This document shows positions 557 through 16,110 of a stretch of 16,110 nt of DNA, piece by piece. Both the position numbers and the translations under genes were made by a program. The stretch is from contig CAKZPJ010000360.1 of assembly GCA_937138955.1 (NCBI GenBank), forward strand, positions 1-16,110, written 5' to 3'. Origin of the DNA: an uncultured Flammeovirgaceae bacterium (GTDB taxonomy: Bacteria; Bacteroidota; Bacteroidia; Cytophagales; Cyclobacteriaceae). Numbering within the stretch: position 1 is the first letter of the stretch; each line of letters starts with the position of its first letter. The notes under the pieces are model-generated. The model saw only the letters and a program-made list of their open reading frames with translations, was not told the origin of the DNA and made no database searches.

Positions 557-2398
557 TCACTTTTGTTCATATTCCTGTTCTACCTCTTCATAATATTCTT
601 TCATCAGGTAAAAGGCCTCCTTTTTAAGACCACGCTCCGAGATCAGGCCCTTGCGGTTGTAGTCATCCTGAATATCGACCAGAGGGCGACGCGGCGAAAG
701 AAAATCTTTGAGTAACCAGGGCGTAGTGCCACGTAGGAAGGGGATTTCTTTGAGCATTTCAATATTGTACTTATACACTTCTGCCTGAAAGTCTTCTGTC
801 CAGCGTTGGTTGACCTCTCCCCGATAACCCTGCAAGGCACCTCCACCAAATTCGCTGAGGATCATCGGTTTTTCGTAGGTAGTTTCCCAGCGCAGTTCGT
901 CACAGCTTTGCGGTTCTCCCTGGTACCATCCGCAATAGTTGTTATTACCAATGACATCAAGTTTAGCCCCCAATGGATCGTCAATCATCTTATTACCGTC
1001 TTCCGTCATGTGGTTTTCCAGGGCGGCAGTAAGCAGTCGTGTGGGGTCAAGGGCTTTGGCATAATCCACTAAGTCAGAAATGAACTCCAGGCGCCCTTCT
1101 TCCATCGGGGTTTCGTTGGCCACCGACCAGAGAATGACGGAAGCTTTATTTTTATCACGGTTGATCATCTCCCGTAACTGTTGCCGGGCGTTGTCAATGG
1201 TTTGCTGGTTTTGCCAGAGAATAGTCCAGTATACCGGGATCTCCGACCAGATCATCATGCCCATCTCATCCGCTGTGCGGGTGGTGTGCTCGTTGTGCGG
1301 GTAATGCGCCAGGCGAAGAAAGTTGCTGTTCATTTCCTGTGCCCAGCCAAACTGTACCCGGGCTTCTTCGGCACTGTTAGGCCGACCAGGTTGGTAAGGC
1401 GATTCTTCATGCATGCAGATGCCTCTCAAGAATATGCTCTGGTCGTTGAGCAGAATATCGTAACCATCCACTTCAATACTCCTCAATCCGATAGGCTCGG
1501 CAATCTTATCCGTTTCCGCTTCTACGGAAACTTCGTGCCTTTTCGGGTTCTCAGGGCTCCAGTAAGTAGGATTTTTGACAGCCGCAGTAAATTCAGCGTA
1601 GCCTTCGGCATTGGTCGGCACGGTTTCGTCAACTTGTAGTTCAACGACACTTAGCTTTACATTTTGCTGACGCTCAGGGCCGTTGAGCTTTACCCAGCCT
1701 TTGATCTGTTGTTCGTTCTGCGGATCAAGCTGTATAAAGTAGTTGTGTACAAAGGTCTGCGGTGCTTCAATAAGTTGAACCGAGCGGGTAATACCGCCGT
1801 AGTTCCACCAATCAAAAATGACGGTAGGCAATGCTTCCCGCTTGCGCTTGTTGTCTACCTTTACAATGACGAAGTTTTCCCCATCTTTGAGCTTATCGGT
1901 GACTTCAAAGTTAAAAGGCGTAAAGCCTCCCTGGTGCTCGCCCACCTTTTCTCCGTTGAGATAGACTTTAGCATCGTAGTTCACTGCTCCGAAGTACAGA
2001 TAATAACGCATATTTGTCTGCTTGTCGTAGTCAAAGACCTTACGGTACCAGATGGTGCCTTCGTAGCGCAACAGGTCTTTGGCCTGCGAATTCCAGTCGC
2101 CGGGCACATTGAGCTTACGGGCTCGCTCAAAGTTGTATTCTATCAGGTCTGAGGGTTGTTGTACCTGTTGGTCTTTGAACCAGCCGTTTTCAGATTCTTT
2201 GTAACGATAATTATAAAAACCAATCTCTTGCTGGTCTACTATGGCATCCCACTTGCCATCCAGTGAAAAGGTATTACGGCCTTCCACATTTGCCAGCAGG
2301 CTATTGTTGTCATCCAGGATAGCCTCCCATTCGGAAGATTGAGCCTTGGTTAGCGTACTATATAAGATTAGGCTGAGGAGTGTTAGCGTTACTTTCAT
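557..2398 (-). CDS. Exported GH2 beta-glucuronidase
   Basis: Predicted retaining glycoside hydrolase that releases non-reducing-end beta-D-glucuronate (possibly galacturonate) from oligosaccharides, probably in the periplasm. The 613 residues, close to E. coli GusA (about 603), start with a signal peptide (1-19, cut before QSS). They continue with a GH2 sugar-binding jelly roll (about 45-212, with GTIWYRK and YLNGEKVGEHQGGFTPF), an Ig-like domain (about 214-306) and a TIM barrel (about 308-605). The acid/base is Glu429 in WSVANE and the nucleophile Glu516 in ILSEFGGG. N581-R-K583, followed by GLISERGLKKEAF, fits the N-x-K motif that binds the uronate carboxylate in glucuronidases and is absent from galactosidases and mannosidases. 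It is the last gene of the enzyme run, 73 bases after the oxidoreductase gene. Family assignment is firm; uronate specificity is a strong inference. Confidence 0.93.
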   Translation of the reverse strand: MKVTLTLLSLILYSTLTKAQSSEWEAILDDNNSLLANVEGRNTFSLDGKWDAIVDQQEIGFYNYRYKESENGWFKDQQVQQPSDLIEYNFERARKLNVPGDWNSQAKDLLRYEGTIWYRKVFDYDKQTNMRYYLYFGAVNYDAKVYLNGEKVGEHQGGFTPFNFEVTDKLKDGENFVIVKVDNKRKREALPTVIFDWWNYGGITRSVQLIEAPQTFVHNYFIQLDPQNEQQIKGWVKLNGPERQQNVKLSVVELQVDETVPTNAEGYAEFTAAVKNPTYWSPENPKRHEVSVEAETDKIAEPIGLRSIEVDGYDILLNDQSIFLRGICMHEESPYQPGRPNSAEEARVQFGWAQEMNSNFLRLAHYPHNEHTTRTADEMGMMIWSEIPVYWTILWQNQQTIDNARQQLREMINRDKNKASVILWSVANETPMEEGRLEFISDLVDYAKALDPTRLLTAALENHMTEDGNKMIDDPLGAKLDVIGNNNYCGWYQGEPQSCDELRWETTYEKPMILSEFGGGALQGYRGEVNQRWTEDFQAEVYKYNIEMLKEIPFLRGTTPWLLKDFLSPRRPLVDIQDDYNRKGLISERGLKKEAFYLMKEYYEEVEQEYEQK

Positions 2399-2471: not shown

Positions 2472-4331
2472 TTACTTAAATGATGCTGAATAGATTTCTT
2501 GTAAAAACGCTTTCCTAAGCTTTCCTTCGTAGGGTAAATCCGTACCTGCCATTTCGTTCCATCGTTGTGCCAATGTTGCATCCATCACTTTATCGGGATG
2601 AATTTCATGGTAGGGGTAGGCAGCAATGTATTGTCCTCTCATTCCTTTACCAGAACCACGTCCAATGTAGGGTACATTTTCGTATTCGAAAAGCCCATGA
2701 AAATAGCCTTGTGTACCAAGAAACTGCGCCACCTTGAAAAACTCGTCTCTCGGCCCGACATCAGTCACATAGACAGTGAAAGCGTTGTATTTGTGAATAG
2801 TTTTCTGCAGGACTGCTACATCTATACTTCTTAGCTGCTTCTTCCCGATGACTGCTTGTGCTGCCGCTAGTCCGGCTGCATAGCCCAAACTAGTCCAGGT
2901 AGGCTCCATACGGAGAGAAGAATAAGCCACATGCGAAGCCGAGACGGCTACCGGTACTAGCAAGCCCTCGGTACGGGGAGGCAGCATGATACGATAGGGC
3001 AGTTGATATGGCTGTACATAAAAATTGAAAGCACCCTCGGTAACGCCGGGATGAAAAGGAATAGGCGCTCCGTTACCATGACTGTCCATGCTGTAGTCGC
3101 AGATCGCTACGGCATCAGCATGTAATTTGGCCCGTACCTGACCCGGTACTTCGGGCTGGGTATCGTGTTCGGTCAAGACAAAATCGCTTTTCATACGTCT
3201 ACCTTCCCGAAGATACAGGGCTGGGGAAAAGCCGTTGGTTTCCTCAAACTCGTCCCGGGCGAACCCCCAAGCTGAAGCCTCTTCACGAATGGACGCCGGT
3301 ACCGTCGTATCATTTTGCATAAAGTACAGCAGCCCTAAAGTATAGTCTTTGTGTTGTTGAAAAATATCTGCCCGTGTAGCACTGTCTCCTTCCGGCCAAG
3401 CATGCTGTGCTTCCATCAGGCGGATACCAAAGGGCGAGTACAGCGGGTCGTTGATATCAGCTTTGCGGTTGGGCAGGTAACGAAATTTGATGACATCGTG
3501 CAGACTTTTTACCTGCCCCTCCTCTATTAGTTCTAACAAGCGGTCATACCTTTCTCTTTGGTAATGCTCAGGTTTCCATACGGTAATGCGGTTCTCTAGG
3601 CTGTCGGTCATGCAGAGGCGAAAGTTGAAACACTGAATCTTATGATCGCCGGCGCCAGTGCTACCCGGCAGGAATTTATGATCCCGGGAAAAGTATTTGA
3701 CCCCAGCGAATAGCTCTCCGTAGACTGACCGGGATTCCCTCCCTACCCGGTAGGGTACGCCTGATGCAGCCATCAGGTCGCCCTCGTAGGTAGCGTCAAT
3801 GAATACTTCAGCGGTCAGTTGCTGAATTTGTCCTTGTCTATTTTCAAAAGTTACTCTTTTAATCTGAGGATTTCCGTTTGTACTATCCAACTGCACCTGC
3901 CGAAGAGCATGCTGCATCAGTAGCTGAACATTATTTTTCTTAAGCAAGTCCATGAATATTTTTTGTGCCACCCGGGGCTCGTACCACACGCCGTAGTAGC
4001 TGTCGTCTACCTGTTTGGAATCAGGGCCGTAGGTGTGGGTATAGTGGGCAAGCACACTATCCATAAACTCCTGGTAAAAACCTCCCAGTGCTTCAAAAGT
4101 CTTAAAATCAGGATTGGACAACCCTCCGGTCATGATGCCTCCAAAATGATCGCTAGGCTCAACCAAGACTACATTCATTCCTTCGCGTGAGGCGGCGATA
4201 CTGGCGGCTACGCCAGCCGGGGTGGAGCCATATACCAGTACATCTAGACTCGCTTGCTGTGCATGGGCACAGTGCCCGGCTCCTGTATGGCAAATGATAG
4301 AAATGGCTACGAATGATACAAGTCTTAACAT
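2472..4331 (-). CDS. Exported FAD-dependent oxidoreductase (PF12831-like)
   Basis: A flavoprotein of unknown substrate. The 619 residues begin with a probable signal peptide (about 1-25, ending HAQQA). An N-terminal dinucleotide-binding unit follows: VLVYGSTPAG (31-40), a helix, and VVLVEP with Glu58 placed to bind the ribose, then HFGGIMTGGLS. FIDATYEGDLMAASG (about 177-191) matches the second FAD-contact motif of this family, and a conserved helix near the end of the core reads SLGYAAGLAAAQAV. The last roughly 100 residues, from VYVTDVGPRDEFFKVAQFLGTQGY, look like the SLH-like tail often seen in these proteins. Members are common in PULs of Bacteroidota and Planctomycetes and are sometimes labelled xanthan lyase without evidence. 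The gene lies 15 bases after the sulfatase, so cotranscription is likely. It may oxidise a sugar or a released product; this is inference. Confidence 0.85.
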   Translation of the reverse strand: MLRLVSFVAISIICHTGAGHCAHAQQASLDVLVYGSTPAGVAASIAASREGMNVVLVEPSDHFGGIMTGGLSNPDFKTFEALGGFYQEFMDSVLAHYTHTYGPDSKQVDDSYYGVWYEPRVAQKIFMDLLKKNNVQLLMQHALRQVQLDSTNGNPQIKRVTFENRQGQIQQLTAEVFIDATYEGDLMAASGVPYRVGRESRSVYGELFAGVKYFSRDHKFLPGSTGAGDHKIQCFNFRLCMTDSLENRITVWKPEHYQRERYDRLLELIEEGQVKSLHDVIKFRYLPNRKADINDPLYSPFGIRLMEAQHAWPEGDSATRADIFQQHKDYTLGLLYFMQNDTTVPASIREEASAWGFARDEFEETNGFSPALYLREGRRMKSDFVLTEHDTQPEVPGQVRAKLHADAVAICDYSMDSHGNGAPIPFHPGVTEGAFNFYVQPYQLPYRIMLPPRTEGLLVPVAVSASHVAYSSLRMEPTWTSLGYAAGLAAAQAVIGKKQLRSIDVAVLQKTIHKYNAFTVYVTDVGPRDEFFKVAQFLGTQGYFHGLFEYENVPYIGRGSGKGMRGQYIAAYPYHEIHPDKVMDATLAQRWNEMAGTDLPYEGKLRKAFLQEIYSASFK

Positions 4332-4346
4332 TGAAATCCCTGAAAT

Positions 4347-5837
4347 TTAAGGGTCAAACACTTTTTTCTGAGACAGGGAATTAGTTAACTGATCAACGGT
4401 TGACCTGTATGAAGCCTTTGCGGCTAGATTCACTGTTTCGTAGGGGTCGGTTTCATGATCATAGAGTTCCATTGATGCTATTTGCCCGGGCTGGTCTTCG
4501 GGGCACCAGGCAGTGAAACGAAAACGATTAGTTCGTAGTGAATGGGCCTGGAAGCCGTCATGGATAATAGTTGAGTAGGCATGATCTTTTCCTACTGAAT
4601 CGGGCGAGTCAACAAAACCCGCAAAGCTTTTACCATCACTTTCCTGCTGGGGCAGTGGTAGGCCCGCAAGTTCACTGAGGGTCGGGTACACATCTACTGA
4701 TTCTACTATCCCGCTTATCTCGTTGCCACTATAAGAAGTTCCGGACACCGACACAATTAAAGGAACCCGGGTGTCTAGCTCCATTGTAGAGTGCTTGCTC
4801 CACCGACCGTATTCACCTAATTTATATCCATGATCCCCCCACAATACGACAATAGTATTATCGCGCATCTCCAGCTTTTCCAGCTCATTCAGCAACTGCC
4901 CTACCTGGGCATCAATGAAACTCACGCAGGCGTAGTAGCCCCATTTGAGACGGGTTGATAAAGAATCAACGAACGGTTCTTCTTCGGAAACATCGGCGTA
5001 GCTACCCGGCTCTGACCAACTACGAAACAGGTAGGGTGGGGCTCCTTCAGGCAAACTATTAATATTGCTGAGTTGCATGTAATCAGATTGGTACGTATCC
5101 CAATACTGGGATGGTGCAGTAAACGGTAAATGTGGTTTATAGTAGCCAACAGCTAGAAAAAAAGGTTGCTGGCTTTTGGCTAACTTCCTCATCGCTTTTA
5201 GTACCTGCTGCGTTGTTTGTCCGTCAGGATAGGCAATATCTGGTACTACAGCTTGCTCAGTAGCATTTGCTTTGTGATAAGGGTTCGACCGTGCTACCTC
5301 CTTGTTATCTTCCAACGCATAAGCCTGAATCGGGTTGAGATGGTCGGGAAGCCAGGCTGGCTTAGACCAGGATAGCGAGTCCTGTAGCAATTTACTATTG
5401 TGATACACCTTACCGAAACTCAAGGTGGTGTAGCCATTTTCTTTAAAGTGCTGAGGCAGGGTTTTTATCTGCGGGATAGTATGGCGGAAGTGGGTTTGCA
5501 AATCCAGTACCCCCGTATGATGCGGGTACAGTCCGGTCATCAGGCTGGTACGGGAAGGGGAGCACCACGACATTTGGCAGTAAGCCCGAGTGAACATAGT
5601 GCCTTCTTCAGCCAAACGGTCAATATTGGGGGAGTGGACTTCCGAAACACCGTAGCAACCTAATTCTGGGCGAAGGTCATCAATCGCTATAAAGAGAATG
5701 TTGGGGTGGTCTGTCCGGGTATTTTCTATCCCACTACAGGACTGCAATAGCAGTAGAAGGCATCCGCCAAGCGTAGCCAAACTGAGCCGGGATAGGGTTA
5801 GGTTGCACGTGAAGAAGTATAAGGCTGTTAGTGGCAT
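4347..5837 (-). CDS. Iduronate-2-sulfatase-like S1 sulfatase lipoprotein
   Basis: Type I sulfatase expected to remove sulfate esters from a glycan residue, most like 2-O-sulfated uronate. The 496 residues have the lipobox LQSC (Cys34) after a hydrophobic stretch, so it is probably membrane-anchored. Metal-site Asp53-Asp54 lie in IAIDDLRPELGCYG. The maturation motif C-S-P-S-R is at 92-96, with Cys92 the formylglycine precursor. Other residues matching human iduronate-2-sulfatase are Lys143 and His146 (GKVYH), His236 (YYKPHLPF), Asp335-His336 (GDHGYKLGEYG) and Lys348. These features place it near SulfAtlas S1_7. The start is four bases after the upstream stop, which implies translational coupling. 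The region before the hydrophobic stretch is long for a lipoprotein, so a later non-ATG start is possible. A formylglycine-generating maturase must be encoded elsewhere. Confidence 0.93.
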   Translation of the reverse strand: MPLTALYFFTCNLTLSRLSLATLGGCLLLLLQSCSGIENTRTDHPNILFIAIDDLRPELGCYGVSEVHSPNIDRLAEEGTMFTRAYCQMSWCSPSRTSLMTGLYPHHTGVLDLQTHFRHTIPQIKTLPQHFKENGYTTLSFGKVYHNSKLLQDSLSWSKPAWLPDHLNPIQAYALEDNKEVARSNPYHKANATEQAVVPDIAYPDGQTTQQVLKAMRKLAKSQQPFFLAVGYYKPHLPFTAPSQYWDTYQSDYMQLSNINSLPEGAPPYLFRSWSEPGSYADVSEEEPFVDSLSTRLKWGYYACVSFIDAQVGQLLNELEKLEMRDNTIVVLWGDHGYKLGEYGRWSKHSTMELDTRVPLIVSVSGTSYSGNEISGIVESVDVYPTLSELAGLPLPQQESDGKSFAGFVDSPDSVGKDHAYSTIIHDGFQAHSLRTNRFRFTAWCPEDQPGQIASMELYDHETDPYETVNLAAKASYRSTVDQLTNSLSQKKVFDP

Positions 5838-5841
5838 TGGG

Positions 5842-7968
5842 TTACTGGTATTCGATCGTTCTGCCTACCGTTGCAATCTTAGGCTGCTCTCCGGCAACTT
5901 CCAACCTGAACCCTTTAGGAGGAATACTAAGGGACTCACTTTCGTAAGTAGTAATTCCAAAGTTAACCCAGACCTTCGTTCCATCACTAAACTCAGAGCG
6001 CTGTACCATATAATCATCCGACAGATAATGATGGTCCACCATCGCAAAATGAGCCGTTTTCTGATGAAGGCGCCCCAGCAAATCGTAGGTTTCCTTATAA
6101 AGTGGTTTAAGATCTTCCCATTGATCATACACCAGTGACCAACTGGAAGGCTGACCATAGAGCACATCCAGCAATACGTGGTTCGCATGATCTTCCCGCC
6201 CGTAAGGAGTGCCGTGCTGCCAGTAGCCCACTACACATTCCCGGTATACTAAGTAGAATAAAGGTACAGTTAGTCCTACTCGGTACCCCATTCCACGGTG
6301 ATAATCACCGCCGCCCCCTTGTAAGCCTTCACAAAAAGAAACGACCGGTAGGGCCCAGTCGGTGCCTCGCTCCCCGCCAACCACCAAGCCCCGGTCTTGT
6401 ACGTTCTTCAGCAAAGCTTTGCGGTAGGCCAAATCCTGCCGACGGGTCATGATATTTTCTGGGTCATAGTTTTCCTCGTGGGAAGTGTTAGTAATCACAT
6501 CGAAATAATAAGCATTTAGTGGAATGTGCTCCTCAATGCTCTTCATATTCCGATTGAGTAGTTCCTCGATAGCGGAAGTGGCAATATGGTGGGTTAGTCC
6601 CCCGTCCCATACTCCACCTAGTCCTATTGAGCCATCTTCTCGTTGGATGATGTACTTTTCGTCGTAGCTAGGCGCATCCGGATAGAAATCGTTATAATTA
6701 TCGTGTAGGGCAAACAGGTAGCCCTGATCTTTTACCCGCAAACAGGCTTGTCGTAACCCATCTACTCCGCCTGGACCCTCTGCCGGGGGCCACATATCTA
6801 CGTGTTCACGGTCGTAACCCATACGGTTCCAGCCGCCCAATAGGATCATGGTTTTCTCAATTCCCATCTCCGAAAGATCCTCAGCAATATCCCCTACCTG
6901 CTCAAAGGTAGTATGCACTCGAGAGTAGCCATTGAGTACCGGGCCGCTCCAAGCGCGTAGCTTGGGGGTATTCTTCCGGTTAGTGTAGATGTAAATCTTT
7001 AGGTCGGGGGCCCCAATAATTTTCGCTACTTCAGGATTGTCATCGATCTTTTGTTTTAAGGTAACGTAGCGCCCGGATTTCTTGGCTTCTTCCTTATAGC
7101 GTTTGGCCATACCCACGTAACCGTTTTCTACCAGTTCAACGCGCATTTTACGCGGATAGCTTAATTGTCCTAGGCTGGATTTCCAAATGGGGGTCAAGGA
7201 AGATAAACGAGTGCCGGGAAGCAGTCCCCGGCTATCATCCACGGTCATGCCCTCTTCGCCTACGTGGGCGTTTCCAATCAAGTGCAATACGCAGTCCGAA
7301 GAAGTTTCTACCATTGCCATCACCGACGAATTGTTTAGGGAGGCACCGAACCAGGGCATGTTCAGGCTACCCGATTCCAGCGTGAGCCAGCGTTCTTGGT
7401 CGGTAATCAAATCCCAGATGTTTTGCCCGTAGCGCATAAATCCGGCATCGTAGCGACTAGGAATAAGAATGCCCTGGAGGTGCGGGGCAACGATGTATCC
7501 GTTCGGAACTCCGGAGTTTACAGTGAACAAATGGGCGGGGTATTCTACGTCTTCCAGGCGCAGGTTGGTTTGGACTTCTTTCAGCTCCAGGGTAAACCCC
7601 TGCTTCAGCAGACTTAACTTAACGGTTAGTGAAAAATCACTATCGTTTAACCGTTCACCTTGAATACCTTGAAAGTGAAGTAGTACCGAATCGGCGTACT
7701 GCCTTATGGAAAAATCAGAGGAAGTCAGTGCTATTTTTTCTGGAGTTCCATCGTCATCGCTTAAGTAGACCCAACCCACGTAGGAACTACCCCAATTAGT
7801 ATTATGCGGTTTGTCAACAAAGCTGAGCGCTCCCTGTTCATCAACCAGTACCTGAACATTTGTGTTTTCCAGGACAGGAGAAGCTCCCAAAACGTACCCC
7901 GAGGCAGCCAACCACAGAACAAAATAGTACAGAATAAACGGGAAGGTAAATAGTAAATGTTTACGCAT
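5842..7968 (-). CDS. DUF5696-like putative glycoside hydrolase, exported
   Basis: The 708 residues have a signal peptide (about 1-29, ending YVLGA), an N-terminal beta-sandwich-like region (about 35-280), a central probable TIM barrel (about 320-640) and a short C-terminal beta domain. The barrel carries LHDNYNDFYPDAPSYD (421-436), AYYFDVIT with Asp490, DPENIMTRRQD, and VGGERGTDWA with Glu533. These resemble the DUF5696 family, distantly related to the GH101/GH129 alpha-N-acetylgalactosaminidase barrels. By analogy Asp490 may be the nucleophile and Glu533 the acid/base; this is inference. The linkage it cleaves is unknown. It opens the four-enzyme run, 474 bases downstream of susD beyond a terminator, so it probably has its own promoter or depends on read-through. 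Confidence 0.75.
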   Translation of the reverse strand: MRKHLLFTFPFILYYFVLWLAASGYVLGASPVLENTNVQVLVDEQGALSFVDKPHNTNWGSSYVGWVYLSDDDGTPEKIALTSSDFSIRQYADSVLLHFQGIQGERLNDSDFSLTVKLSLLKQGFTLELKEVQTNLRLEDVEYPAHLFTVNSGVPNGYIVAPHLQGILIPSRYDAGFMRYGQNIWDLITDQERWLTLESGSLNMPWFGASLNNSSVMAMVETSSDCVLHLIGNAHVGEEGMTVDDSRGLLPGTRLSSLTPIWKSSLGQLSYPRKMRVELVENGYVGMAKRYKEEAKKSGRYVTLKQKIDDNPEVAKIIGAPDLKIYIYTNRKNTPKLRAWSGPVLNGYSRVHTTFEQVGDIAEDLSEMGIEKTMILLGGWNRMGYDREHVDMWPPAEGPGGVDGLRQACLRVKDQGYLFALHDNYNDFYPDAPSYDEKYIIQREDGSIGLGGVWDGGLTHHIATSAIEELLNRNMKSIEEHIPLNAYYFDVITNTSHEENYDPENIMTRRQDLAYRKALLKNVQDRGLVVGGERGTDWALPVVSFCEGLQGGGGDYHRGMGYRVGLTVPLFYLVYRECVVGYWQHGTPYGREDHANHVLLDVLYGQPSSWSLVYDQWEDLKPLYKETYDLLGRLHQKTAHFAMVDHHYLSDDYMVQRSEFSDGTKVWVNFGITTYESESLSIPPKGFRLEVAGEQPKIATVGRTIEYQ

Positions 7969-8241
7969 AGGTTGTTTTGTTTGAGTTTTTTATTGCCCTA
8001 CTAATAATTCTAGTCTTGGGTAATTTATTTATGTGATATCAAAAGATATACAGACCGTTCAACAAGCTTTAAATTAGCCACAACAGTAACACGTGCTCGC
8101 TCTGATGTAAGACACTTTATTTTTTTAGTTTTGATTCTGGCATTTGCTGAAAAACTTATCCCAACCCTAAACCAATGTTAGCCAAAAAAATCGTAAAACG
8201 TGAAAGAACAGAACACAATCTGTTTGAAAAAAGAAAAATAA

Positions 8242-8255
8242 CGTTCCCGGAAAAT
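8242..8255 (+). promoter_or_regulatory. Putative LacI-family operator, copy D (upstream of enzyme operon)
   Basis: CGTTCCCGGAAAAT matches 11 of 14 positions of CGTTCCCGGTAACG found upstream of lacI. The left half and CCGG core are intact and the right half is degraded. It lacks the TGCAA extension of the other three copies. It lies 274 bases before the enzyme-operon start codon. This is the weakest of the four copies as a palindrome, but it is in non-coding DNA where control of the second transcript would be expected. Confidence 0.45.
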
Positions 8256-8383
8256 TAATACGTCTTGAAAAATAAAAACCATATAGATTGAAGATAGGAA
8301 TATGACCCGTTATGAACTCATCTGGACAAAGCTTCACCATGAAAAACAGGTGCTTATACTGACGGATAAAGCTATAATTGCTA

Positions 8384-8417
8384 CAAAAAAAGAAAAGCCC
8401 CACCAATGGCAGGGCTT
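8384..8417 (-). terminator. Intrinsic terminator downstream of susD
   Basis: Read on the minus strand, AAGCCC and GGGCTT form a 6-bp stem (8412-8417 with 8395-8400) around an 11-base loop that can itself add two G-C pairs. A T-rich run, TTCTTTTTTT, follows at once. It begins 26 bases after the susD stop. It should end or attenuate the susCD transcript, giving more SusC/D than enzyme if read-through is partial. Confidence 0.85.
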
Positions 8418-8442
8418 AGTTTTGGTTACTTAATTCAGATTA

Positions 8443-10017
8443 CTAGTTGTATCCCGGATTTTGATCCGCTTCAGTTATGGCTTCGTTATTATTTATTTCA
8501 TTCTGAGGTATAGGGTAGTACTCGTGCTTACCAGCCTGGAAATTGGCGATAAATTGAGGGGCTAGTCCCCAGCGAACCAGATCAGTACGTCGTACCTGTT
8601 CCATACTCAACTCTACTTGCCGCTCTGAAATCAGAAAGTCAATAGCCTCAGCTTGTGATGCCCCGGTAGGCCGGTCGGGCAAGATTGCTCCGGTAGGATC
8701 GGCCCGGCGGCGGATCTGGTTGATCAACGCAACTCCCTCCACTACTTTGCCCTGCTGTATTTTAGCCTCAGCGGCCATCAGTATCACGTCAGCATATCGA
8801 ATTACATCATGATTCACGTCATTATCATCAGGGTTGTTGGGATTCTGCACGAACCGATCTTGTTGATATTTTTTATACGCGTATCCTGAAGTAGCCAATA
8901 TATCCGAGTAAGGCACTTCTTCGCCTCCCTGCACGATAGTATCGTTTTCGGTGAAAAAGAAGGCTTCAAAACGAAGGTCGCGGTCGCCTATTGCGGTTCC
9001 ACCATTTCCTACGAAGGCAGCCAGTAGCTCAGGACTAGGTTTAGCGTTATAGAAGGAGGATCCATCTACCCCGTATTCGCGGGGCCGAATGGTAGCTTCA
9101 CGCCGGCCATTCTCATTGTTACTGTTCCAGCTTAATCCTCCGGCACCGCCCAGAAATTGCACTTCAAATACGGCTTCCCCGTTGTTCTTAACTCCAAATG
9201 TATGATTCTGACGCATAGCTGCAATAGCTTCTTCAACGGTTGTTGCCTCGCCAGTAGGATCATTGGGCCCACCAATTAAGTAGTAAGATCCGTTATTGAT
9301 AACATCCATAAGTTCAGTTTCGGCAGCCTGATATTCCTCCTGGTACAAGTGCGCTTTACCCAGTAGGGATTTGGCAGCTCCCCGGGTGGCGCGCCCCACG
9401 TTCGCTTCATCCCATTCCCAGGGCAACTTAGTAGCAGCATCTGTCAAATCAGACTCTACCAGTTCCCAAATTTCTTCGGGAGAAGCCCGGGGGGTAGATA
9501 ACTCCTCATCGTTTTCTTCGGTACGCAATGGGCCGCCGTTCCATAGAGCATTGATGTAGAAATAACCCAAAGCCCGTAAAAACTTCGCCTGGCCAATTAC
9601 TTCGTCTTTCACCTGCTGATCAATGTCTATGTCGGATACTTCACCAATCGTAATATTGGTTTTAGCAATCATCCGGTAGAACATATTCCAGGGATTGTCA
9701 ATGTGCTCATTTCCCTGCGGACCAAATGTATGCTGCAGCAGTTCAAAAGGTGCCCCCTGGGTGTTAGGGGTAGGAGCTACTTCATCGGAAGCAAAATCCA
9801 ACATGAAGTGAATCCGCCTTCCCCACAAGCTTAAATTTTGAAGGGGGGCGTACGCCGCCGTAACGGACGCTACAGCATCGGCTTCGGTCTGATAAAACGA
9901 ACCCGAATTAACACTGGTGTTATCGGTACGATTTAGAAATTCATCCCCACAGCTAGTGTACAGTAGGGATAAAGATATGGTTAAAGCAGTAATGATTATT
10001 CTTTTCATCTTCTTCAA
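8443..10017 (-). CDS. susD: SusD/RagB-family glycan-binding lipoprotein
   Basis: Surface lipoprotein that caps the partner SusC channel and binds the oligosaccharide before import. The 524 residues start with a short signal peptide and lipobox LYTSC (Cys23). The following Gly-Asp-Glu is consistent with the acidic lipoprotein export signal used by Bacteroidota to reach the cell surface. The N-terminal SusD-like region includes NRTDNTSVNSGSFYQTEADAVASVTAAYAPL (about 29-59), and LRALGYFYINALWNGGPL is typical of the TPR-like part. The RagB/SusD C-terminal part includes VILMAAEAKIQQG, LINQIRRRADPTG and the closing PIPQNEINNN...QNPGYN. The start is 13 bases after the susC stop, so the two genes are an operon. 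The ligand cannot be read from the sequence. No SusE/F-like gene follows. Confidence 0.97.
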   Translation of the reverse strand: MKKMKRIIITALTISLSLLYTSCGDEFLNRTDNTSVNSGSFYQTEADAVASVTAAYAPLQNLSLWGRRIHFMLDFASDEVAPTPNTQGAPFELLQHTFGPQGNEHIDNPWNMFYRMIAKTNITIGEVSDIDIDQQVKDEVIGQAKFLRALGYFYINALWNGGPLRTEENDEELSTPRASPEEIWELVESDLTDAATKLPWEWDEANVGRATRGAAKSLLGKAHLYQEEYQAAETELMDVINNGSYYLIGGPNDPTGEATTVEEAIAAMRQNHTFGVKNNGEAVFEVQFLGGAGGLSWNSNNENGRREATIRPREYGVDGSSFYNAKPSPELLAAFVGNGGTAIGDRDLRFEAFFFTENDTIVQGGEEVPYSDILATSGYAYKKYQQDRFVQNPNNPDDNDVNHDVIRYADVILMAAEAKIQQGKVVEGVALINQIRRRADPTGAILPDRPTGASQAEAIDFLISERQVELSMEQVRRTDLVRWGLAPQFIANFQAGKHEYYPIPQNEINNNEAITEADQNPGYN

Positions 10018-10030
10018 TTGACTAATTTAA

Positions 10031-13000
10031 TTAAAATCCTAACTGAACTCCCAAAACAATAGTTCTCGGCTGAGGGTATAATAATCGGTCTATACCATTA
10101 TCTCGAGGGTCGCCACCCTGCGTGCCTACTTCGGGTTCTAGACCGAAATAATTGGTAATGGTAGCCAGGTTTTGAGCCGAAGCGTAAATACGTAGCCGAC
10201 GGGCATTAAGACGGTCTAACACACTGGCAGGAAGGTTATAACCCACTACTAGGTTCTTAATACGCGCGTAGGAACCATCAAATACGTAGCGGTCAGAACT
10301 GCGCAGCACGTTACGGTTAGGATCGGCTCGCACAATACGCGGCTCGGAAGCCGTATAGTTGGGTTGGTAATAGGTAGCATTGAGTGCTTCAACCCCCTGA
10401 TTAAAGTTCTGACGGCGATCAACCAGCCAGCGTTTGGCCGCATTGTAAATCTCATTACCCTGCGAACCTTGAATAAACAGCTGGAAATCTAACCCTTTGT
10501 ATGAACCATTGAAGGTAAACCCGTAGAGAAAGTCGGGAATAGGACTACCCAAAGGTACTTGGTCATCCCCGTCTATTATACCGTTGCCATCCGTATCCCT
10601 CCAACGAATATCTCCCGGGGCGGTATTGGTCACTGAGGTTTCAACATCCTGGGCATCAGAATCATAAACTGGAGCACCGTCAGCTCCGGTTTCCCCCGTG
10701 GTAGCCTGGTTAATATAGGCGTGGTTATATACCTCGTCCCAGCTTTGGAAGATACCATCGCTGACAAATCCGTAGAACGTACCGATGGGCTCGCCTACGC
10801 GGGTCCAAGAAACTTGATTGATATCATCGGTTACGCTACCATCGCGTAGGATTACATCTTCCCCACCTGAAAGAGCTAGTACTTCATTGTTGATCGTTGT
10901 TAAGTTAGCATTCATATCAAATTGGAAGTCGCCTACTGATTTGCGGTAGGTAATGCCCAACTCAATACCGTTATTCTGTATTTCTCCGGCATTCACGAAT
11001 GGTGCCCTTAATCCCGCTGAATTAGGAACGTTGGCCCGTAAAATTAAATCCACGGTATTTCGGCGGTAGTAGTCGAAGTTCACCACCAACCGGTTCTCAA
11101 ATAAACCCATGTCGAGCCCGATATCCAGTTGTTCAGAAGTTTCCCAGCGCAAATCGGGATTGGCTAGTTCATTCTGGCCGATACCTGCGATAGTTTCTCC
11201 ACCGATAACGTAGTAATAGTCAGTAAGTAGGTTAACATCAGTAGGGTAAGCACTCAACGGTGCCTGGTTGCCGAGCGTACCCCAGCCGGCTCGGATTTTC
11301 AGGTCGCTGATAAAGGAAACATTATCCATAAACCCTTCTTCACTGATGCGCCACCCGGCTGAAACCGAAGGAAAGATACCCTCGGGGTTGTTTCCCCGAA
11401 ATAGCTTAGAAGTAAGATCGTACCGAATATTAGACGTTAGTAGATACTTGTTAGCATAATTGTAGGTGACCCGCCCGAAGTAGGAGCGCAAAGCGGTTTC
11501 GGCAAAACTTTCGCTGACATCCCGGTTTACGGTAGCGGCTTCCAGCGAGACAACGTTGTCAGGCAATTCAGTCCCACTACCCCCAATGCTGGAGAAGTTG
11601 GTTTCTTGCACGGCAAAACCTCCTAGCACGGTAATGTTATGTTCACCAAACTGTTTGTTGTAGGTTAATGTCTGCTCCAAAATAGGGTTGAAAACCTGGT
11701 TTCGTGACCGATTAATGCTCGATGACGTTCTTAACCGACGTACTCCCTGGTAAGTAGGGTTATAGGTGAAGTTGTTCTGATAGCCAAAATCCAGCCCGAG
11801 CTGCAAGCGGTAGGTTAAGCTGGGAATAATGTCCCATTCTCCGTACAATGATCCAAAAATTTGGTAGCGCTCCTGATCGTTGTCGACCAACATGGCATCG
11901 GCAATCGGGTTAGAGGCATCTTGCCCCTCGTCGGTATCGGGGTAGCCGTATCCACCCAGAAAAGAAGGGTCCAGAATGGGTACAGTAGGTGCTTGCTTAA
12001 TAGCGTGCTCTTGCGGTCGCCGTCCGCCAGCGCCTCCGTATACTTCCTTGAAGGTTCGGCTTATCAGCATTGTTTCGCCAATACGTACCTTGCCATTAAA
12101 CATCTTAAAGTCAGAGTTTAGCCGAAGGGCATAACGATCAAACGAAGTGCCAACCATGGTGCCCTCCTGATCGAAAAATTCCAATCCGGCTCCGAAAGTG
12201 GCATTTTCGTTACCTCCCGAAAGGCTAAGGTTATACTTTTGAATGGGTGCCGGATCGTACAGTTCGTCTTGCCAGTTGGTATTAGTATTGGTGCCTAATA
12301 ACCGCCCGCCACCGTCAGCACCGGGATCAAACGCCGTCGGCAACTGGCCATCGGGGCCACTGTGCAACTCCTGAATATAATTAATATACTGGTCGTTGTT
12401 CAGTACGTCGTAGAACCGGCCCTGGGATTGAATACCATAGTAACCATCAAAATTCACCTGAACCGGGCCTTGCTTGCCTCGTTTGGTGGTAATGAGTACT
12501 ACCCCACCGGAGGCTCTTGAACCGTAGATAGCCGCCGCCGAGGCGTCTTTTAGAATGTCGATAGACTCAATGTCATTGGGGTTGAGACTGTTCAGAATGC
12601 TGTAGCCATTCACCCCTTGTTGCCCTTGCTGTACCTGTACTCCGTCAATTACGTAGAGCGGGGTTTCACCGTTGATCGTACCAATACCCCGGATGTTCAC
12701 CTGAAGAGCGCCTCCGGGCGTTCCTCCGCCCGTTTGAGTTACCTGTACGCCCGGTACTCGGCCTTGCAGCGATTGTTCCACTGAGGTAAGCGGTATACTT
12801 TCTAGATCTTCCATAGAAACAGAGGAAACCGCGCCTGTGACAACGCCTTTTTCCTGCGTACCATAACCGACAACAACCACTTCGGAAAGCGACTGAATAT
12901 CGGGTAGCATCAGCATGTCAATAGTTGATTGGTTACCCACAGTCACTTCTTCGGCAGAGTAGCCTACGGCCGAAAAAACCAGAATAGCATCTTGGCCGGG

Positions 13001-13207
13001 TACGGTGATTCGGTAGTTTCCGTCAATGTCGGTCACCGTACCCTGGGTGGTGCCTTTGACCAGGATATTAACTCCCGGCAAAGCTCCTTCCTCATCAGAG
13101 GTGACCGTTCCGGAGACGGTACGAGACTGAGCGAGCACTGCTATGCTTAACAAGCTCAATAGCCCGACTAGTGGCATAGTCTTTAAAACAGTAGTAAAAA
13201 CTCTCAT
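10031..13207 (-). CDS. susC: SusC/RagA-family TonB-dependent oligosaccharide transporter
   Basis: Outer-membrane TonB-dependent channel that imports glycan fragments with the adjacent SusD. The 1058 residues comprise a signal peptide (about 1-26, ending VLA-Q), a CarboxypepD-regulatory-like domain (about 30-104; VSGTVTSDEEGALPGVNILV), and a SusC-type TonB-box/linker segment EVVVVGYGTQ (109-118). A plug follows (about 118-235; LQGRVPGVQVTQTGGGTPGG, NIRGIG, PLYVIDGV, DIESIDILKDASAAAIYG). The beta-barrel runs to the C-terminus and ends in VQLGF, with the terminal aromatic residue used for barrel assembly. No STN/secretin domain is present, so signalling through an anti-sigma factor is not indicated, which fits control by the nearby LacI protein. 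It starts the susCD transcript and is complete. Confidence 0.98.
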   Translation of the reverse strand: MRVFTTVLKTMPLVGLLSLLSIAVLAQSRTVSGTVTSDEEGALPGVNILVKGTTQGTVTDIDGNYRITVPGQDAILVFSAVGYSAEEVTVGNQSTIDMLMLPDIQSLSEVVVVGYGTQEKGVVTGAVSSVSMEDLESIPLTSVEQSLQGRVPGVQVTQTGGGTPGGALQVNIRGIGTINGETPLYVIDGVQVQQGQQGVNGYSILNSLNPNDIESIDILKDASAAAIYGSRASGGVVLITTKRGKQGPVQVNFDGYYGIQSQGRFYDVLNNDQYINYIQELHSGPDGQLPTAFDPGADGGGRLLGTNTNTNWQDELYDPAPIQKYNLSLSGGNENATFGAGLEFFDQEGTMVGTSFDRYALRLNSDFKMFNGKVRIGETMLISRTFKEVYGGAGGRRPQEHAIKQAPTVPILDPSFLGGYGYPDTDEGQDASNPIADAMLVDNDQERYQIFGSLYGEWDIIPSLTYRLQLGLDFGYQNNFTYNPTYQGVRRLRTSSSINRSRNQVFNPILEQTLTYNKQFGEHNITVLGGFAVQETNFSSIGGSGTELPDNVVSLEAATVNRDVSESFAETALRSYFGRVTYNYANKYLLTSNIRYDLTSKLFRGNNPEGIFPSVSAGWRISEEGFMDNVSFISDLKIRAGWGTLGNQAPLSAYPTDVNLLTDYYYVIGGETIAGIGQNELANPDLRWETSEQLDIGLDMGLFENRLVVNFDYYRRNTVDLILRANVPNSAGLRAPFVNAGEIQNNGIELGITYRKSVGDFQFDMNANLTTINNEVLALSGGEDVILRDGSVTDDINQVSWTRVGEPIGTFYGFVSDGIFQSWDEVYNHAYINQATTGETGADGAPVYDSDAQDVETSVTNTAPGDIRWRDTDGNGIIDGDDQVPLGSPIPDFLYGFTFNGSYKGLDFQLFIQGSQGNEIYNAAKRWLVDRRQNFNQGVEALNATYYQPNYTASEPRIVRADPNRNVLRSSDRYVFDGSYARIKNLVVGYNLPASVLDRLNARRLRIYASAQNLATITNYFGLEPEVGTQGGDPRDNGIDRLLYPQPRTIVLGVQLGF

Positions 13208-13629
13208 ATAATAGCGTTTGAGTTAAAAGAATATAATTGAATAAAAATTGTAAGTGCAACTAATATCTATTAAACAAAAAATTTACGATGGTTTTCTAAG
13301 GTCAGCTTGGTTTTCAGTAGTAAAGCGTTTTATCAATAATTTTAAAATTGACAGCATTTGTTTGAATATATTCTAATACGATCCTCAATATTACTTATTT
13401 TGTGGTATTATCGTAAGAAATGCACGACATTTTTGTGAAAAATACAGATGTCGCAGTCTGGGAACGTTTGCAGATAATTTATTTTGAATGGATAACTCTC
13501 ATATCGGTGTTTTTTGGGCTAACCTAATCCTGATAAAAAAACAATAGGCAGCAAGTTAGTAAGGAAGACCGTTAAGCAGGTAAAAAGAAGGAAAGGTGGA
13601 TTGAAGTGTGAGGATACCCTGAGAATCTA
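13208..13629. other. Intergenic region between lacI and susC
   Basis: This 422-base A/T-rich region contains the operator-like element at 13453-13473, about 250 bases before the susC start. No convincing terminator for lacI, TAnnTTTG promoter or small gene was seen. The distance from operator to start suggests a long susC leader or a promoter missed by eye. Read-through from lacI into susC cannot be excluded. Confidence 0.5.
13453..13473 (-). promoter_or_regulatory. Putative LacI-family operator, copy A (upstream of susC)
   Basis: On the minus strand this reads CTGCAAACGTTCCCAG followed by ACTGC. The first 16 bases are an imperfect palindrome (12 of 16 symmetric positions) centred on the AACGTT core typical of LacI/GalR/PurR operators. 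The left half GCAAACG equals the PurR-type half-site. It shares TGCAA-A-CGTTCCC-A-G with copies B and C, in the same orientation relative to the gene downstream. Confidence 0.55.
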
Positions 13630-14673
13630 CTACCGAACGTGGGATTCGCTTTGCTTAAGCAGTGAAGATTTTCGGACGATTAATTCCGATTTCAGAATTC
13701 TGGTTTCGGGAAAACGGTCTTCGGGTTCCAATCGGATTTGCTCCAGAAAGAGCTGGGCCGTTGTTTGACCAATTTCATAAGTAGGCTGAGAGACAGTAGT
13801 GAGCGATGGGTCAATAAGCTCCGCCAGTGGCTCATTGGTGAAGCCTACAATGCCAACATCATTAGGTATCTGAAGCCCCATTTCTTTAATTATTTTCATG
13901 GCTCCAAAGGCAGCAGAATCACATACTACAAAAATGGCATCCGGTGGTTCAGGTAATGACAACAATTTCCGGGTACACTGGATACCGCTCTCCATGGTAA
14001 AGTCGCTTCGTACAATGAGTTCTTCTTCAACGGGCAATCCGTGCTTCTTCAAAATATCTAAATAACCGTTTAACCGGTTGGTGCTTATTTGCAGGGTAGA
14101 TGGTCCGGCGATATGGGCTATTCTTTTATACCCCTGGTCTACCAGGTGCTCCACCGCATCGCGGGCTCCCCCATAATCGTTCACCTGCACTTTTGAAACA
14201 TTGAGCTCTTTAGATACCCGATTAAACATAATTAGCGGAATACCTTTTTGCTGAATTTGTTTTAAATGGCTAATATCCTGGGTTTCGCGGGATAAAGAGC
14301 ATATTATTCCATCAACTCGGCTGGAGAGCAGGGTGTGAATATTATTTATTTCGGTCTGGTATCTCTCACCTGACTGGCATATCATTACGTTATACCCAGA
14401 TTCGGTTAATGCCTCCTGAATAGCACTGATCGCCGAGGAGTAAAAATGAATGATAAAACCGGGAATAATAATGCCGACAATGTGGGTGCGCTTGGTCACC
14501 AGACTAAGTGCCACCGAATTAGGCTCGTAGTTCAACTCCTCAGCTAGCTTTCTGACCTTTCTCTTGGTTGCCGGATTCACGTCGGGCAGTCCCCGTAAAG
14601 CTCGGGAGATGGTAGAGGTAGAAAGATTGAGTTTTCGGGCTAAGTCTTTTATAGTGATTTGACCACTGTTCAT
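13630..14673 (-). CDS. LacI-family transcriptional regulator of the PUL
   Basis: Sugar-responsive DNA-binding protein, predicted to bind the CGTTCCC-type sites in this window. The 347 residues, the usual size for the family, carry an N-terminal helix-turn-helix (6-27; ITIKDLARKLNLSTSTISRAL). Next is the LacI hinge (about 48-60; NYEPNSVALSL, with Leu56 in the minor-groove intercalating position). A periplasmic-binding-protein-like effector domain (about 64-335) has IVGIIIPGF, VDGIICSLS, PLIMFNRV, YGGARDAVEHLVDQGYKRIAHIAGP, DAIFVVCDS and NDVGIVGFTNEP. It lies upstream of susC in the same orientation and divergent to an amidohydrolase gene. An operator-like site 47 bases before its start codon suggests autoregulation. 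The inducer is unknown; a uronate or oligosaccharide product would suit the enzymes. Confidence 0.96.
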   Translation of the reverse strand: MNSGQITIKDLARKLNLSTSTISRALRGLPDVNPATKRKVRKLAEELNYEPNSVALSLVTKRTHIVGIIIPGFIIHFYSSAISAIQEALTESGYNVMICQSGERYQTEINNIHTLLSSRVDGIICSLSRETQDISHLKQIQQKGIPLIMFNRVSKELNVSKVQVNDYGGARDAVEHLVDQGYKRIAHIAGPSTLQISTNRLNGYLDILKKHGLPVEEELIVRSDFTMESGIQCTRKLLSLPEPPDAIFVVCDSAAFGAMKIIKEMGLQIPNDVGIVGFTNEPLAELIDPSLTTVSQPTYEIGQTTAQLFLEQIRLEPEDRFPETRILKSELIVRKSSLLKQSESHVR

Positions 14674-14719
14674 AAAGTAAGAAGATTATGAAGTTATAGC
14701 TTAATAGACATGATACATA

Positions 14720-14740
14720 CGTTCCCGGTAACGGTTTGCA
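14720..14740. promoter_or_regulatory. Putative LacI-family operator, copy B (upstream of lacI)
   Basis: CGTTCCCGGTAACG (14720-14733) is symmetric at 12 of 14 positions around CCGG, followed by GTTTGCA. On the minus strand it reads TGCAA-AC-CGTTACCGGGAACG toward lacI. The core GTTnCCGGTAAC resembles the operator of E. coli GntR/IdnR, which are LacI-family regulators. At 47 bases before the lacI start codon it is well placed for autorepression. Confidence 0.7.
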
Positions 14741-14949
14741 AAACAACATACTAAAATTTGAGAGAAAATTTTAAAAATATTAATCGTTCTGCGATTTACT
14801 GTAAATAGGTTATGCTAACTGATTAGATAGTTTTGTGAGCAGGCATCTTTGACTTTAGCACTATATTGATACATAACTACCTCTCTCTTTAGAAAGTCGT
14901 AACGGTGAGAATAAGAAAAAATTGAGCTACTTTAAAAATTCAGCACTTA

Positions 14950-14981
14950 TTTGAGTCAGTAAACTTCAACAATAGTTATTG
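14950..14981 (+). promoter_or_regulatory. Candidate Bacteroidota-type promoter for the amidohydrolase gene
   Basis: TTTG at 14950-14953 is followed 19 bases later by TAGTTATTG (14973-14981). This resembles the TTTG-N19/21-TAnnTTTG promoter of Bacteroidota, with two mismatches in the -7 element. Operator copy C begins at its last bases, where a bound repressor would cover the transcription start. Such A/T-rich motifs recur by chance, so the call is tentative. Confidence 0.35.
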
Positions 14982-14999
14982 CAATCGTTCCCGGCAACG
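14980..14999 (+). promoter_or_regulatory. Putative LacI-family operator, copy C (upstream of amidohydrolase)
   Basis: TGCAA-T-CGTTCCCGGCAACG. The last 14 bases are symmetric at 12 positions around CCGG and differ from copy B at a single base. It points toward the plus-strand amidohydrolase gene, 300 bases upstream of its start, and abuts a candidate promoter. It is the main reason for placing that gene in the same regulon as the PUL. Confidence 0.65.
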
Positions 15000-15162
15000 T
15001 TGTGGGTGATTCTTTACGTTATCCGAAAATAATTTTTATTCAAATTGGCGGAGAAGCTGATATAGTATCGTGAGTATGTCAATGAAGTTCTGCTAGTAGA
15101 AGATCCATGATAATCTGATGGCACCTCGCCTGTACTAAGGGAGTCAGGTAACCATTTGCTAG

Positions 15163-15299: not shown

Positions 15300-16110
15300 T
15301 TGAAAGATTCGATCATATCCGAGATCAACCGACGAGTTGGTTATTTAAAAGAGAATAAAGATTCACTCACCATAGATGGGGATACCCATCCTAGTGACAT
15401 CAGTGCTATTGACCCAGAATTACGGAGCAAAGTGCTAGACCATCCTAATTACTATCAGGGCAAGCCTATCGATACCAAAGACTTAATCCGGGAAATGGAT
15501 ATGGCCGGGGTAGATATGGGTATTTCCTGGCAAAATCCTTCGGTGTTGGTATACGAAGATATATCTGAAGAGAATTATTACACCAACTATCAGAAACTAC
15601 TGGGAGCTAACCGGCATATATATCATGCTAGCGGAGAATACCCCACTAGAATCATTCCTTGTGGTTGGACAGACCCCAAAGCCTTAGGAGTAGACCTGGC
15701 GAAGCAGATGGCTAGCATTTGTATAAAAGAATTTGGCTTTCCGGTAGTGAAAATGAATCCGGGGCAAAATGAATACCCGATGGATAGCCCGGAAGTATTG
15801 GAGGTAGTATCCCATATTATCTCCTTAGGTGCTATACCGACCTTTCACTTTGGCGGAGATACCCCCTACACAACTATTCAGGCTTTAACTCAAATTGCCG
15901 AACAGTACTCTAGTCATAGAATTATTGCCGTGCATATGGGTGGTGGTGGTTCCCACTACGTGGAGGGGGACGGGCACTATATCCGAACTCGTGAACTTGG
16001 CCTGAAATATCCTAATCTCTTCTTTATTTTAAGTGCTATCCGCGATTGCCATATTGAAAGTAACTTAATCACGTATCAGTTAGCCGGCAAGCCTTTTTCG
16101 CAGAATATCG
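15300..16110 (+). CDS. Amidohydrolase-2 family metal-dependent hydrolase (3' end outside window)
   Basis: The first 270 codons of a cytoplasmic TIM-barrel hydrolase like PF04909, a family including lactonases, decarboxylases and related enzymes. The reading frame is open from a stop at 15231 to the window edge. The only reasonable start before conserved sequence is TTG at 15300, after an A-rich stretch, giving MKDSIISEINRR. Landmarks are the metal-binding Asp28-x-His30 (IDGDTH), PVVKMNPGQNEYPMDSPE (148-165, the usual Lys and Y-P-x-D segment), His183 (TFHFGG), His212 (VHMGGGG) and a possible catalytic Asp249 (SAIRD). No signal peptide is seen. It diverges from lacI and carries operator copy C upstream, so it is probably induced with the PUL. 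Its substrate is unknown; a sugar-acid lactone would be logical after glucuronidase or oxidase action, but that is inference. Confidence 0.85.
   Translation, partial: MKDSIISEINRRVGYLKENKDSLTIDGDTHPSDISAIDPELRSKVLDHPNYYQGKPIDTKDLIREMDMAGVDMGISWQNPSVLVYEDISEENYYTNYQKLLGANRHIYHASGEYPTRIIPCGWTDPKALGVDLAKQMASICIKEFGFPVVKMNPGQNEYPMDSPEVLEVVSHIISLGAIPTFHFGGDTPYTTIQALTQIAEQYSSHRIIAVHMGGGGSHYVEGDGHYIRTRELGLKYPNLFFILSAIRDCHIESNLITYQLAGKPFSQNI

Follow-up and report, generated by a model that had tools for sequence, protein, structure and literature searches.

The window analysed here is a stretch of 16,110 bases from an uncultured Flammeovirgaceae bacterium, which makes up the whole of one contig (C360) in a genome of 5,628,691 bases and 879 contigs. 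It carries a polysaccharide utilization locus with a lacI gene, together with four short elements, S1 to S4, that are candidate operators for the LacI protein. The lacI gene (13630..14673, minus strand) encodes a LacI-family regulator of 347 aa with both a LacI-type helix-turn-helix domain (PF00356, 46.1 bits against a cut-off of 27) and a sugar-binding domain (Peripla_BP_3, PF13377, 122.9 bits), and the recognition helix reads LSTSTISRAL (class TST). Divergent from lacI is an amidohydrolase gene (15300..16109, plus strand, TTG start), which is truncated by the contig end and gives a weak PF04909 match just under the cut-off; a sequence search among solved structures gave one match, the only weakly related 4-oxalomesaconate hydratase 2gwg (E 2e-4). 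On the minus strand lie susC (10031..13207), encoding a SusC/RagA TonB-linked outer membrane protein (TIGR04056, 871.7 bits against a cut-off of 368), and susD (8443..10017; PF07980, PF14322). These are accompanied by an enzyme operon, also on the minus strand, whose first gene encodes a DUF5696/GH129-related protein (5842..7968; PF18952, PF11308), and which further encodes a sulfatase (4347..5837; PF00884), a flavin adenine dinucleotide (FAD)-dependent oxidoreductase (2472..4331; PF12831) and a glycoside hydrolase of family 2 (GH2; 557..2398), for which the nearest NCBIfam model is a beta-glucuronidase, below its cut-off. At the left contig end there is a C-terminal fragment of an ISKra4-family transposase (112-513; 97 bits against a cut-off of 205).

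A preliminary description of this DNA had pointed to four copies of the heptamer CGTTCCC, none in coding sequence, each standing before a transcription unit. An exact scan of both strands and the gene calls agree with this, giving exactly four copies in the window (8242, plus strand; 13460, minus strand; 14720 and 14986, plus strand), all of them intergenic. The number of copies is not significant, as dinucleotide shuffles contain 2.03 +/- 1.45 copies and 30 of 200 shuffles attain four, and the count was dropped as evidence for that reason. The placement is remarkable, because called intergenic DNA makes up only ~1.78 kb of the 16.11 kb (11%, summed by hand), and the chance of finding four of four copies there is ~1.5e-4.

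Two of the copies belong to the near-identical 14-mers with a CCGG centre that had been described at 14720 and 14986, CGTTCCCGG(T/C)AACG, and both of these were located as stated. In 18-bp form they are S3 (TACGTTCCCGGTAACGGT, 14718..14735), which lies 45-62 bp ahead of the ATG of lacI, and S4 (ATCGTTCCCGGCAACGTT, 14984..15001), which lies in the divergent region between lacI and the amidohydrolase gene and has an extended half, TGCAATCGTTCCC, beginning at 14980. Frequent occurrence throughout the genome, or lack of conservation at orthologous loci, had been named beforehand as speaking against a shared regulator. Neither was observed for S3 and S4. An exact match to the 14-mer occurs three times in the 5.6-Mb genome, namely at S3, S4 and C136:5288 (inside an open reading frame). 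Exact matches to the symmetric form CGTTNCCGGNAACG are confined to these three positions, and ten further positions match it with one mismatch. The 14-mers of S3 and S4 lie within 266 bp of each other. Short motif matches arising by chance and without function would account for four copies of a 7-mer, but such an explanation is very improbable for the 14-mer because of this rarity and because of its recurrence beside related lacI genes, in both of the samples of loci described below.

The four copies had been presented as one set, and all of them are real and intergenic, but they are unequal. S3 and S4 are full CCGG-centred even palindromes with a central CG. S1 (AACGTTCCCGGAAAATTA, 8240..8257), ~275 bp ahead of the enzyme operon, is a degraded palindrome in which the left half and the CCGG are kept but the right half is degenerate. 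S2 (TGCAAACGTTCCC, 13460..13472, minus strand), ~255 bp ahead of the ATG of susC, is a candidate half-operator that has the left half only.

For scoring, an 18-mer consensus, AACGTTNCCGGNAACGTT (scored out of 16), was built from related lacI loci, chiefly from two Flavisolibacter sites (L064), and the consensus and its flanks were fixed after the window sites, S1 and S2 included, had been seen. In the window it ranks S4 first (15/16), S3 second (14/16) and S1 third (13/16), the next best match scoring 11, and in first-order random sequence of the same composition 0.061 sites of at least 13 and 0.001 sites of at least 14 are expected per window. S2 scores 11/16, which is the background level. 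It matches at 12 of 12 positions the sequence TGCAAACGTTNCC, for which 0.006 perfect matches are expected per window. This sequence makes up one half of TGCAAACGTTCCCGGCAACGTTTGCA, an extended operator from L170, a locus in a distant genome within the same order. The half-site test was not blind, as the extended form was noticed after TGCAAWCGTTCCC had been seen to be common to S2 and S4. The sequence TGCAANCGTTNCC has six occurrences in the genome, S2 and S4 among them. The S2 12-mer AACGTTTGCAGA is present there as a single copy and recurs ~200 bp before susC in a related locus (L146).

The difference in quality between the sites raises the alternative that only S3 and S4 are operators, serving lacI and the amidohydrolase gene, with S1 and S2 being fortuitous remnants or bound by a different factor, and with the enzyme operon and susCD controlled otherwise. 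It would fit the broken right half of S1, the S2 score at the level of coding background, the choice of consensus flanks at a time when S1 and S2 were known, and the finding of no susC-proximal CGTTNCCGG element in L117, L143 or L146. We nevertheless regard it as unlikely in view of the S1 score and the perfect half-operator match of S2, both rare under the null models above, the recurrence of the S2 12-mer at the L146 susC promoter, and a full site ahead of a GH30 gene in L143.

Homologues of the amidohydrolase are rare, being present in 5 of 194 other relatives, and 394 other genomes sampled evenly across the phylum Bacteroidota yielded no orthologue at E 1e-45. Three of the five genomes have a lacI of the TST helix class no more than a few kb from the amidohydrolase gene (L117, L146 and L143, with LacI proteins 56%, 58% and 46% identical to the window LacI, respectively). 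Permeases of the GntP gluconate:H+ symporter family (TIGR00791, above cut-off) lie near the homologue in two of these loci (L143:10717-12006 and L146:8057-9451), and L145 has a YiaMN-like tripartite ATP-independent periplasmic (TRAP) transporter instead, suggesting a sugar acid. An amidohydrolase in such company is not the unexpected member of the locus that it had first appeared to be. L143 has its lacI divergent from a GntP permease-binding protein-amidohydrolase unit, with ACCGTTACCGGGAACGTT 30 bp ahead of lacI, and a GH30-type gene in the same locus is preceded by ATCGTTCCCGGTAACGGT; in L146, AACGTTCCCGGGAACGTA stands before a unit that ends in lacI. These sites are the best of each 19.9-kb region, and two of the three other lacI-amidohydrolase loci carry the S3/S4-type site. 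The amidohydrolase loci with no lacI in view (L144, of only 4 kb, and L145) contain no site scoring at least 12.

Recurrence beyond the amidohydrolase loci was followed in LacI relatives from 146 related genomes and in 80 named loci, with 20 regions fetched and an early look covering 30 of the 80 loci. The loci were grouped by the recognition helix of LacI, and the 4096 possible half-sites with the pattern NNNNxNN were ranked. Beside LacI genes of the T/I/V-ST helices CGTTNCC ranked first, occurring with at most one mismatch in 8 of 35 loci (IST 5/6, TST 2/5, VST 1/24); it was first beside IST genes and tied first beside TST genes. In the non-P group as then parsed it was third (8/63), after TGCA- and CGCA-type halves that belong mainly to AST and CST genes. 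Intergenic sites scoring at least 13/16 to the 18-mer consensus were present in 4/7 TST and 5/6 IST loci (9/13 together), 5/15 KST, 1/24 VST, 9/14 AST, 0/10 CST, 6/16 PST and 0/3 AAT loci, and the counts for TST, IST, KST, AST and PST were attained by 0 of 400 letter-permuted half-sites (54 of 400 for VST). Across 95 loci, 26 sites of at least 14/16 were found in 267 kb of intergenic DNA, versus one in 1516 kb of coding DNA. A search for 16-bp palindromes before lacI at 30 loci gave few matches and was not counted as evidence. Seven AST-helix loci (L086, L089, L091, L093, L101, L102 and L108) have GCAAACGTTTGC ~199-209 bp before susC, at a very constant position.

For a second sample the consensus and the helix class were fixed in advance, and 17 loci (of 30) from genomes outside the first 146 were scanned. 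In all seven TST/IST loci a site of at least 14/16 lies in intergenic DNA 27-153 bp upstream of lacI, and the one in L192 (AACGTTACCGGGAACGTT) is perfect. Among the ten loci with other helices, some of them relatives of each other and of first-sample loci, one reaches 14 (a PST variant) and two more reach 13. The LacI proteins of L190, L193 and L194 are 93-99% identical to that of L128 in the first sample and are therefore not new evidence, which leaves four of four loci (L189, L192, L198 and L199, with LacI 57-75% identical to the respective nearest one). Against one in ten, Fisher tests calculated by hand give ~4e-4 for 7/7 and ~5e-3 for 4/4. In the reverse direction, the exact consensus occurs at nine places in 3 of 395 genomes, versus four places in four genomes for a reversed-pattern control; the excess is modest, and six of the nine places are in one distant genome (G116). 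Eight exact-consensus loci from three genomes were examined (L163-L170), and in all of them the site is intergenic, three times before susC. The sites, their rarity, their positions and their recurrence beside LacI genes of the same helix class are thus observed directly.

On this evidence, the polysaccharide utilization locus probably forms a local LacI-type regulon, to which we assign a probability of about two in three, with support that is strong for lacI and the amidohydrolase gene, moderate for the enzyme operon and weaker for susCD. The single circuit of enzymes, transporter, regulator and hydrolase drawn in the preliminary description thus holds in its core, at S3 and S4, and is less firm in its outer parts. 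We infer binding, repression, the effector and the regulation of both the enzyme operon and susCD as follows. A LacI dimer with the TST recognition helix would bind CCGG-centred palindromes of the consensus form; bound at S3 it would repress lacI itself, and bound at S4 it would repress the divergent amidohydrolase unit. Through the weaker S1 it may repress the enzyme operon (GH129-like protein, sulfatase, FAD oxidoreductase and GH2). The half-site S2 might give it an influence on susCD. Release of LacI would be brought about by a product of glycan breakdown, either a sugar acid, plausibly uronic or aldonic, or an oligosaccharide.

Several observations, besides the unremarkable copy number of CGTTCCC, weigh against a LacI regulon of this extent. 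S1, S2 and S4 lie ~253-316 bp from the start codons, outside the zone of 140-30 bp that is usual for such sites (PMC4052901), so that one has to suppose long leaders for them or a part in looping; S3 lies inside this zone. The Bacteroidota promoter element TAnnTTTG has one exact copy, at 14828 and directed towards the amidohydrolase gene, and is absent in exact form from three of four promoter regions examined, nor was a TTG found at the searched spacing from it. The amidohydrolase-containing locus L117 offers only weak candidates (12/16 in intergenic DNA and 11/16 before the amidohydrolase gene), and the TST loci L130 and L131 have no site of the consensus type. The first-sample loci include close relatives (four of Echinicola and four of the Parachryseolinea kind), so that their counts overstate independence. 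AST (9/14) and PST (6/16) loci also beat all 400 permutations, with sites that have a TGCGG centre in 8/9 AST loci and a CCGC centre in 6/6 PST loci. The one locus outside these other-centre variants, L099, has a KST LacI as well. Two exact 18-mers adjoin LacI genes of the helix classes VST and SST (L163 and L169) and not TST or IST, and the relation between helix and operator is therefore graded, not exclusive.

A further point of this kind comes from the genome itself, which encodes six LacI DNA-binding domains. One of them, in an IST-helix protein encoded on contig C785, has similar sites (TCGGTAACGTTACCGA and AACGCTTTCGGTAACGTT) upstream of its gene and could cross-bind. That this or another LacI-family protein of the same genome is the one that binds some or all of the window sites appears quite improbable, given that S3 stands so close before the lacI of the window and that such sites repeatedly precede lacI at TST/IST loci. 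The region upstream of the C785 gene (L157:1405-1460, G000:C785) has near-overlapping motif copies, some ~12 bp apart, including TCGGTAACGTTACCGA.

If regulation by the window LacI is as proposed, the DNA signature together with a simple protein marker, the TST/IST helix, would help to predict regulons of uncharacterized LacI proteins, and a poorly characterized amidohydrolase, accompanied by gluconate-type permeases in two related loci, would be tied to sugar-acid catabolism. A wider generalization, which we offer tentatively and consider somewhat doubtful, is that in Bacteroidota the operator can largely be predicted from the residues with which the recognition helix begins, with TST/IST proteins recognizing AACG(T/A)TNCCGGNAACGTT and AST/CST proteins more often TGCAAACGTTTGCA-like sites. 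The two types would fuse into the composite 26-bp operator TGCAAACGTTNCCGGNAACGTTTGCA of L170, and single halves such as S2 would provide graded control at susC promoters.

Control of polysaccharide loci in Bacteroidota is best known from hybrid two-component systems, SusR and anti-sigma pairs, and to our knowledge few operators have been described for LacI-controlled SusCD loci. No description of CGTTNCCGGNAACG as the operator of a SusCD-linked LacI was recognised by title or abstract in searches of one open library.

The window sites had been compared with GntR/IdnR operators. The gluconate/idonate operator consensus of E. coli GntR/IdnR is a CCGG-centred even palindrome with a TTNCCGGNAA core, and the window sites resemble it in both respects, a likeness that concerns the DNA only. 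The GntP gluconate-type permeases near the amidohydrolase gene in two related loci add to this likeness. GntR/IdnR differ in the recognition helix, which is KMT versus TST in the window LacI, and in the outer operator base, which is T versus C. The resemblance therefore stands for the DNA sequence and fails for the protein: membership in these families is excluded by NCBIfam models NF047913, NF011563 and NF052440 (136.9 against a cut-off of 500, 99.8 against 433 and 175.4 against 400, the first two being the scores for IdnR and GntR). The highest-scoring NCBIfam LacI models, CytR and RbsR (NF008269 and NF047341), likewise miss their cut-offs (256.6 against 436 and 223.2 against 382).

Within Bacteroidota, the LacI-family regulators KdgR, UxaR, UxmR and UxuR of Bacteroides thetaiotaomicron serve uronate use and are tied to monosaccharide pathways (PMC3878776); they share with the window LacI the family, the phylum and a probable connection to sugar-acid pathways. 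More generally, local regulons of the LacI family whose sites are even palindromes centred on CG are already known, as described by Ravcheev et al. 2014 (PMC4052901) for a regulon set of which Bacteroides makes up ~1-2%. Unlike the usual regulons of that set, the window has three of four sites beyond 140-30 bp and one that is just a half-site. Like them, it combines a LacI-type protein with an even CG-centred palindrome, intergenic sites, likely autoregulation and a clustering of sites round one sugar pathway.

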